64,000 nucleotides of DNA from Chloroflexota bacterium (lineage in GTDB: Bacteria; Chloroflexota; Dehalococcoidia; Tepidiformales; Tepidiformaceae). Shown here one piece after another: positions 23,372-25,555 of this stretch. How positions within the stretch are numbered: the stretch's first letter is position 1; each line of letters starts with the position of its first letter. The DNA lies in NCBI GenBank assembly GCA_026705605.1, contig JAPPAK010000007.1, forward strand, positions 372,001 to 436,000, written 5' to 3'. A program made the translations under genes and the position numbers. The notes under the pieces were generated by a model, which saw nothing but the letters and a program-made list of their open reading frames with translations, was not told the origin of the DNA and searched no databases.

Positions 23372-23866
23372 TTAGGCGCCAGAGTCGAGCGCCGCGACCA
23401 GCATCTCGAGGGCGTGCTCGGCAATCTGCTCCATGATGGCCACGCGCGAGCCCTCGAAGTGCATTTCTTCGCTCACCGTGCCATCCGGCCCGGCGACGGC
23501 GAAGGAGACGCCGCCGATGGGCTTCGACGACCGCCCCTTGATGGGCCCGGCCATGCCGCTCTCGGCGACGACGTAGTCGGCGGCGCTGCGATCGAGTACG
23601 GACTCGGCAATGGCGGCGACGGCGACGGGACTGACCGTGCCGTGCTCACGGAGGAAGTCGATGCTGACACCGAGTGTGTCCGGCTTCGAGGGCATGGTGT
23701 AGGCGACGAGCCCGCGGTCGAACCACTTCGAGGCGCCGGAGACGCTGATGAGGCGGGCGGAGATGAGGCCGCCGGCGGTGCTTTCGGCAACGGCGACGCG
23801 GGCTTCGCGGGCCAGCAGCAGCTCGCCGACGCGCGCGGCGAGGGAGTCGTTCTCTTGAATGGACAT
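23372..23866 (-). CDS. CinA C-terminal domain protein, nicotinamide-nucleotide amidase (PncC type)
   Basis: A 164-residue stand-alone CinA C-terminal domain, which deamidates NMN to nicotinate mononucleotide for NAD recycling. It keeps AESTAGGLISARLISVSGASKWFDRGLVAY (about 27-57) and AESGMAGP, the active-site core. The CinA N-terminal domain is absent, as in E. coli PncC. Predicted leaderless: TAGCAT ends six bases before ATG 23866. It is divergent from phzF with only 22 bases between the start codons. NAD salvage would fit with nadB/nadC and an NrtR-like regulator in the same window. Confidence 0.88.
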   Translation of the reverse strand: MSIQENDSLAARVGELLLAREARVAVAESTAGGLISARLISVSGASKWFDRGLVAYTMPSKPDTLGVSIDFLREHGTVSPVAVAAIAESVLDRSAADYVVAESGMAGPIKGRSSKPIGGVSFAVAGPDGTVSEEMHFEGSRVAIMEQIAEHALEMLVAALDSGA

Positions 23867-23872
23867 GGGCCG

Positions 23873-23878
23873 ATGCTA
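23873..23878 (-). promoter_or_regulatory. -10 element, leaderless start of cinA/pncC
   Basis: TAGCAT on the minus strand with a 6-nt gap to ATG 23866. It overlaps the plus-strand -10 of phzF by two bases. Confidence 0.6.
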
Positions 23879-23882
23879 CGCT
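23877..23882 (+). promoter_or_regulatory. -10 element, leaderless start of phzF
   Basis: TACGCT with a 6-nt gap to ATG 23889. It supports MAEYEITIVD as the N-terminus over the longer track ORF. Confidence 0.6.
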
Positions 23883-23888
23883 CCCGCG

Positions 23889-24781
23889 ATGGCCGAGTAC
23901 GAGATCACGATCGTCGACTCCTTCACCACCGAGCGGTATGCCGGCAACCCCTGCGGCGTCGTCACGCACGCGGATGGGCTCACGCCCGAGCAGATGCAGA
24001 CCATCGCGCGCGAGATGAACCTGAGCGAGACCGCGTTCGCCATGCCCTCGGAGGTGGCGGATTTCCGCGTGCGATTCTTCACGCCACGGAAGGAGATCCC
24101 GCTGGCGGGCCACCCCACGATCGCGACGATGCACGCGCTCGTGGAGGACGGGCTCATCGAGCTCGCCGAGGGATCGCGCCGCGTGACGCAGGAGCTGAAC
24201 GTGGGCGTACTGCCGGTCGACCTGTCGCGGCGCGACGACGGACGGGTGCGGATCGCGATGACGCAGGCGACGCCGGAGTTCCGAGACGAACTCGACCGGG
24301 ACGTGTACGCGCGGGTGCTCGGCATCGGGACCTCGGACCTGCTTGAGGGAGCGCCGCCCCGGGTCGTGAGCACGGGAACGCGCCAGGCGATGATCCCGGT
24401 GGCCTCCCTGGCCGTGCTGGAACGCGTCCGTCCCGACCTCGAGCAGCTGGCCGAGCTGGAGACGGCGGAGGGCTACTTTTCAGCACCCACGTGTTCGCGC
24501 TGGAGACCTACGACCCGGCGAACCGGGTGCATGCGCGCCACTTCGGGCCGTCGTCGGGTGTCTGGGAGGATCCGGTGACGGGCAGCGCGACGGGCGGGAT
24601 GGCGGCCTACCTGTGGCGGCAGGGCCTCGTGCGCGAGGCGGCGTACACCGTCGAGCAGGGCCACATCATGGGGCGGCCGGGGCTGGTCGAGGTGGAGGTG
24701 GAGGGTGAGGGGGACACGCCCACGACGGTGCGTATCGCGGGGACGGCGGTCACGGTTCTGCGGGGGACCATCACGGTCTGA
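23889..24781 (+). pseudogene. PhzF-family isomerase gene with a -1 frameshift
   Basis: PhzF proteins isomerise small substrates through an N-terminal Glu. The first frame (23889 to about 24480) has VDSFTTERYAGNPCGVV, MNLSETAFAMP with the catalytic Glu, and FFTPRKEIPLAGHPTIA. The rest, [40 protein letters not shown], continues in another frame to 24781. The break is at TACTTTTCAGC: one more T would give YFFSTHVF without interruption, and the summed length of about 297 residues is normal for the family. This is a homopolymer deletion in the sequence or genome, or less likely ribosomal slippage. Residues after YFS in the track ORF are out of frame. Confidence 0.88.
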
Positions 24782-24807
24782 CTCGCCGCCGCCCTCAGTC
24801 GCTCTGC

Positions 24808-24813
24808 TACGCT
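24808..24813 (+). promoter_or_regulatory. -10 element, leaderless start of the SCO1664-type gene
   Basis: TACGCT in the extended form TGC-TACGCT with a 7-nt gap to ATG 24821. Confidence 0.55.
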
Positions 24814-24820
24814 GCCCGCC

Positions 24821-25555
24821 ATGACCCGCAGCATCGACATGGCCGGGGCCGAGGCACTGCTGCTGGAGGCGGAGTTCGAGGATCTGAAGCTGCTCTGGTC
24901 CTCCAGCAACTACGTCTACCTGGCGCGGCTCTGTGCGGGCGACGGACAGGAGATCGCGGCGGTCTACAAGCCGGAGTCGGGCGAGACGCCGCTGTGGGAC
25001 TTCCCCACCGGAACGCTGTACGCGCGCGAGGTGGCGGCCTACCAGCTCGCGCAGCTGCTGGGGTGGTCGTTCGTCCCGCCGACGGTCGTGCGGGACGGGC
25101 CGCAGGGGATCGGGTCGCTGCAGCTGTATGTGCCGCACGACCAGTCGTCACACTTCTTCGAGCAGCGAGACGACCCGGAGCTTGTGCCGCAGCTGCAGCG
25201 GATGGCGGTGTTCGACTTCGTGGCCAACAACGCCGACCGCAAGGGCGGCCACTGCCTGCTGGACGAGCAGGGCCGCGTCTGGGGCATCGACCACGGGCTC
25301 TGCTTCCACCGCGAGTACAAGCTCCGCACGGTGATCTGGGACTGGGCGGAACAGCCCATCTCGGATGAGTGGCTGGGGGACGTGGAGCGGGCGGCGACGG
25401 CGGTGGCGGGGGACGATGAGGAAGCCGAAGCGTTTAACACGCTCCTCTCACCGGACGAGGTCGGGGCGTTCCTGGGCCGAGCCGACCGGCTCCTGCGGAC
25501 GCGAGCGATGCCCACTCCGGGTCCGCACCGGAGCTACCCCTGGCCCCTGGTCTAG
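24821..25555 (+). CDS. SCO1664 family protein (PI3/4-kinase-like fold)
   Basis: A 244-residue protein of the group annotated as SCO1664 family, with distant similarity to PI3/4 and HipA-like kinases. Conserved phrases are VYKPESGETPLWDFPTGTLY (nucleotide-binding Lys, about 50-70), MAVFDFVANNADRKGGHCLL (catalytic Asn/Asp region, about 125-145) and WGIDHGLCFH (metal-binding DHG/DFG-like, about 150). Substrate unknown. In actinobacteria it often neighbours cysteine-pathway or histidine-phosphatase genes; that context is absent here. Stops are shared with the convergent VOC gene through CTAG. Confidence 0.85.
   Translation: MTRSIDMAGAEALLLEAEFEDLKLLWSSSNYVYLARLCAGDGQEIAAVYKPESGETPLWDFPTGTLYAREVAAYQLAQLLGWSFVPPTVVRDGPQGIGSLQLYVPHDQSSHFFEQRDDPELVPQLQRMAVFDFVANNADRKGGHCLLDEQGRVWGIDHGLCFHREYKLRTVIWDWAEQPISDEWLGDVERAATAVAGDDEEAEAFNTLLSPDEVGAFLGRADRLLRTRAMPTPGPHRSYPWPLV

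Follow-up and report, generated by a model that had tools for sequence, protein, structure and literature searches.

The window that we analyzed is a stretch of 64,000 nucleotides from the 2.79-Mb genome of a member of the Dehalococcoidia (Chloroflexota) that belongs to the same family as Tepidiforma. Two divergent genes lie within it. The gene on the minus strand (positions 23372 to 23866) is cinA/pncC-like and encodes a protein of 164 amino acids with a nicotinamide-nucleotide amidase domain (Pfam CinA, 6.7e-45; TIGR00199 PncC domain, 1.2e-32). The gene on the plus strand (positions 23889 to 24781) encodes a phzF-family isomerase, with a match to the Pfam PhzC-PhzF domain (1.4e-44); this domain is hit on both of its halves. 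From here on, we refer to the two genes as cinA and phzF. The ATG of cinA occupies positions 23866 to 23864 and the ATG of phzF begins at position 23889. A preliminary description of this DNA had placed the two start codons 22 bases apart, and this gap (positions 23867 to 23888) was borne out by the sequence, which reads CAT GGGC CGATGCTACGCT CCCGCG ATG from position 23864 to position 23891.

The start of cinA can be bounded from the sequence. The TAG at positions 23878 to 23876 is an in-frame stop for cinA, and thus the ATG at 23866 is the earliest possible start of this gene. For phzF, further in-frame ATG codons lie upstream at 23859 and 23865. A Shine-Dalgarno-like run at the usual distance was not found in the sequence before the ATG of either cinA or phzF, and both genes are predicted to be leaderless. 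The window copy of phzF carries two extra bases at about positions 24477 to 24480 (TTTT versus TT in its relatives), resulting in a +2-nt frameshift that leaves the last third of the gene out of frame: the 5' frame runs to 24578 and the 3' frame to 24781. In seven relatives of the genus, phzF is a single frame of 296 amino acids. The frameshift is either a true mutation or an assembly error.

Nearly all of the 22-bp intergenic region is taken up by two predicted -10 elements and their 6-nt spacers. The predicted -10 element of cinA, TAGCAT (positions 23873 to 23878, minus strand), and that of phzF, TACGCT (positions 23877 to 23882, plus strand), each match TANNNT with a gap of 6 nt to the ATG, which is the leaderless position relative to the start codon on both sides. 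A TGN extension (positions 23874 to 23876) precedes the phzF element. The two hexamers overlap in a common TA step at positions 23877 and 23878, which reads TA on both strands. On the basis of this spacing, transcription is predicted to start at the A of each ATG, at position 23866 (minus strand) for cinA and at position 23889 (plus strand) for phzF, with the two +1 bases 23 bp apart.

We then asked how often TANNNT is found at this distance from start codons in the source genome. Gene-start statistics were collected from 436 kb of its contig C2, on which a simple caller based on codon usage predicted 414 genes (91% coding). TANNNT preceded in-frame ATG or GTG codons 22, 19, 10, and 9 times at gaps of 6, 7, 8, and 9 nt, respectively, compared to ∼4 times per gap elsewhere; the background of the motif on the sampled contig was 0.001 per position. 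As estimated from predicted starts, the excess corresponds to ∼44 leaderless genes (∼11%). The peak at 6 to 7 nt before starts argues that leaderless promoters are real in this genome. In four divergent pairs on the contig, both genes had TANNNT at a leaderless gap; their starts were 23, 52, 79, and 101 bp apart, and only cinA/phzF among them had overlapping hexamers. The next gene in the window (24821, PI3/PI4-kinase-like) looks leaderless, with the same -10 element as phzF located 7 nt before its ATG (TGCTACGCT, positions 24804 to 24823).

Relatives were searched among 8 other species of the genus and 29 further members of the family; the named phzF-bearing relatives are metagenome-assembled genomes of Dehalococcoidia (Chloroflexota). 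We aligned nine phzF-bearing sequences, comprising eight genomes of the genus and contig L042. The intergenic length of 22 bp was common to all nine, and the 12-bp promoter core CGATGCTACGCT (positions 23871 to 23882) was invariant in 9/9. Four-fold sites in the flanking genes were invariant at only 5/67 positions in cinA and 4/59 in phzF; that is, ∼93% of them were variable. Contig L042 (JAJDVQ010000029.1) is titled Acidimicrobiia and carries the cinA/phzF region of the genus (cinA 87% and phzF 71% identical, with the same 22-bp promoter); it is probably a mis-binned Chloroflexota contig.

The preliminary description had proposed that both genes are leaderless and that their -10 elements overlap, and it had located the -35 positions inside the partner gene. 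These proposals, with the starts as predicted above, are backed by the sequence, the positional statistics, and conservation across the genus. On the phzF side, a candidate -35 element, TTGAAT (positions 23855 to 23860, plus strand), lies inside codons 3 and 4 of cinA, matches TTGACA at 4/6 positions, and is separated from the -10 element by a 16-bp spacer. Its TTG was kept in 9/9 sequences by means of the rare glutamine codon CAA (6.8% of Gln codons), which occurred at 5/35 glutamines in codons 2 to 6. A -35 consensus was not clearly enriched across 41 leaderless promoters of the source genome, and A/T-rich early codons may be favored for unrelated reasons; for both reasons we regard TTGAAT as a likely but unproven -35 element of phzF. 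No recognizable -35 element was found on the cinA side (best match, 2/6), and no TGN extension. Thus, the cinA side may be weak, or it may be driven from further inside phzF.

Could the two -10 elements overlap by chance? The 28-bp pattern CATN6ANNNTANNNTN6ATG had a single match in the 2.79-Mb source genome, at cinA/phzF, and was present once per genome, always at the cinA/phzF locus, in 8/9 genomes of the genus (the source genome included). Spacings of 7/6 and 7/7 gave scattered matches, none of them in the source genome. In the rest of the family, the 28-bp pattern was found at four places in 29 genomes (L094 to L096 and L105). Two of these, both in genome G017, had a frame of >100 amino acids on one side only, and none of the four was flanked by long open frames in both directions. 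With a permuted control pattern we obtained 2 matches in 38 genomes, and the 28-bp pattern in the family outside the genus is near chance level. Chance overlap at cinA/phzF is ruled out by the single locus-specific match, the control pattern, and the invariance of the core.

Genome G004 of the same genus is a natural deletion experiment. It lacks an orthologue of phzF (best match, 7.9e-4), and its cinA (locus L010) faces a homologue of the PI3/PI4-kinase-like gene that comes next after phzF in the window (positions 24821 to 25555). In G004, TAGCAT is intact, the position of TACGCT reads TACCAC, and the position of TTGAAT reads CCGAAC. The phzF sites are gone and the cinA -10 element is kept, and therefore the two halves of the promoter are tied to their own genes and are separable. 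In other genera of the family, a TANNNT lies close to the ATG of phzF, commonly with a TGN extension (e.g., TGCTATCCT), and several cinA genes that do not adjoin phzF have TANNNT at the leaderless position. Where cinA and phzF are divergent, unfused neighbors in these genera, 53 to 139 bp separate their starts, and 614 bp in one genome; several of the close divergent pairs (e.g., L020, L022, and L024) have a Shine-Dalgarno-like run before cinA. Conservation of the 22 bp in relatives, which the earlier proposal had named as a check, is thus exact within the genus but does not extend to the other genera. These data indicate that the shared promoter belongs to the genus and that the gene pair can do without it.

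A scan of the class (294 genomes) returned ∼30 matches to the 28-bp pattern in a second genus (g38, family f21), spread over 15 genomes; a reversed control pattern had 1 match in the same 15 genomes. The f21 loci that we inspected (L139 to L153) were divergent pairs in which both sides had an open frame, and they showed the same predicted layout, a 22-bp gap with two leaderless starts and a shared TA step. Three unrelated gene pairs were represented: a RibD_C-domain reductase with a protein of ∼80 amino acids without a Pfam family, a 6-pyruvoyl-tetrahydropterin synthase (PTPS) with an MFS transporter, and a MobA-like transferase with YqeC. A 360-kb sample of G055, a genome of f21, had a sharp TANNNT peak at a gap of 6 nt (30 versus ∼3). 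In most other genomes of the class, which are lower in G+C, matches were comparable in number to those of the control. The layout is recurrent in at least two lineages.

Published prokaryotic bidirectional promoters (Warman, Grainger, and colleagues; PMC12825309 and PMC10268837) have one pseudo-symmetrical -10 region that is read both ways, and their common distances between transcription start sites are 18, 10, and 23 bp (PMC12825309). The cinA/phzF region resembles them in its overlapping -10 elements, in the distance of 23 bp between its assumed starts, and in its place between two divergent protein-coding genes. It differs in that both start codons would sit on the transcription starts, which are predicted from sequence, so that the promoter would take up all of the intergenic region, and in that the host is a member of the Chloroflexota and not an enterobacterium. 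The region is best filed as a putative extreme form of the known bidirectional promoter, one in which the promoter would be the whole intergenic region. A layout with 18 bp between starts (CATN5TANNNTAN5ATG) was found at only three places in 38 genomes, and we rejected it as a common feature of the family.

We consider it highly probable that the 22 bp form a minimal bidirectional promoter with a 23-bp configuration of start sites that gives rise to two leaderless mRNAs. RNA polymerase with the housekeeping sigma factor would melt the common TA step (positions 23877 and 23878) while facing either way. A rightward polymerase would use TGC-TACGCT, perhaps helped by TTGAAT in cinA, and would start at the A of the phzF ATG; a leftward polymerase would use TAGCAT and start at the A of the cinA ATG. 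The cinA and phzF mRNAs would both be leaderless and would not overlap. The promoter could hold a single polymerase at any moment, and at ordinary strength both genes would probably fire largely independently. Interference would be expected only if one side became strong, most likely the better-equipped phzF side, and in that event we would expect the phzF direction to win. The phzF frameshift counts against the bidirectional promoter in the source genome: this strain may have no use for one half of it, or the frameshift may be an assembly error.

One potential explanation for the overlap is compaction only. Two ordinary leaderless promoters would have been pushed together by loss of intergenic DNA in the genus, and the overlap would be neutral, with each -10 element needed for its own gene. 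We give this explanation roughly even chances. It is consistent with the separate conservation of each half with its own gene, and with the distances between divergent genes in the source genome, which are broad (mostly 38 to 380 bp), the exact shared core occurring genome-wide only at cinA/phzF. What speaks against it is that three gene pairs of a different family have a gap of exactly 22 bp as well, which hints that the spacing itself is favored. Compaction is compatible with a bidirectional promoter and differs from it only on whether the sharing has a function. A more ambitious proposal is that the 22-bp arrangement of two leaderless starts around a shared TA step is a standard module of the Dehalococcoidia, and that gene pairs evolve to an exact, selected, and quantized distance between starts since a single -10 core is enough for two leaderless genes. 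We hold this proposal only tentatively and think it rather less likely than not to apply.

A further possibility is that the overlap is kept for regulation, in that occupancy by a polymerase on one gene silences its partner and cinA and phzF are expressed as alternatives. The preliminary description had predicted mutual exclusion on the grounds that one polymerase at a time can use the site. The premise follows from the geometry, since -10 elements that share two base pairs cannot be bound simultaneously, and it agrees with the finding that opposing polymerases cannot bind a bidirectional promoter together (PMC12825309). Exclusion therefore stands for occupancy, in that the two orientations exclude each other, but it does not follow for expression. 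At five Escherichia coli bidirectional promoters, weakening one direction barely affected the other, and basal activity was too low for competition; activating one side of such promoters can repress the other, and interference emerged at the tested promoters only upon strong activation of one side (PMC12825309). From these findings, exclusion is to be expected at the level of occupancy and not at the level of expression. The divergent pair is also retained with starts 53 to 614 bp apart in other genera of the family, which argues against selection for silencing of the partner. We know of no functional link between cinA and phzF. We therefore judge regulatory exclusion improbable and treat an on/off switch as a testable possibility, not a conclusion.

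The remaining alternative, that translation of phzF begins at one of the upstream ATG codons (23859 or 23865), which would make the conserved core part of the coding sequence, is very improbable: the upstream frame is open in every relative of the genus inspected and a mechanical call of open reading frames puts the start at 23859, but the core would then read CGA TGC TAC GCT, in which the third bases of the rare codons CGA (4.8% of Arg codons) and GCT (3.9% of Ala codons) are invariant beside a residue after the would-be Met that changes freely (Gly, Phe, or Pro), so that the core is not conserved as protein, and moreover the family profile match begins near residue 3 counted from the start at 23889 and phzF homologues in other genera begin at the homologous MPEYQ.

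The predicted bidirectional promoter can also be set beside two other known systems. Leaderless genes with TANNNT ∼10 to 12 bp upstream have been described (PMC3160421). The cinA/phzF pair is like them in having TANNNT 6 nt before the ATG on both sides, in the high-G+C form of the motif, and in lacking a Shine-Dalgarno sequence; unlike them, the two genes stand back to back with overlapping hexamers. Few leaderless genes were reported for the Chloroflexi (4 of 12 genomes, at 4 to 6%; PMC3160421), and the share that we estimated for the source genome is higher. In Mycobacterium tuberculosis, lysG and lysE are a divergent pair with overlapping promoter motifs and one leaderless transcript (PMC5648196). 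That system differs in its 108-bp intergenic region, its LysR-type regulator, and its inverted repeat (PMC5648196), whereas neither cinA nor phzF encodes a regulator and a separate operator would not fit into 22 bp. No description of a dual-leaderless bidirectional form was found in the literature searched, which is weak evidence of absence.

With one conserved core and start codons on the predicted transcription starts, the gap between cinA and phzF would be close to the minimum size for a divergent regulatory region, in a phylum with almost no leaderless-transcript data in the literature searched. Are overlapping -10 elements kept for regulation or merely tolerated? The locus offers a clean natural test of this question, and since the layout recurs at further pairs of genes, it could be surveyed statistically.
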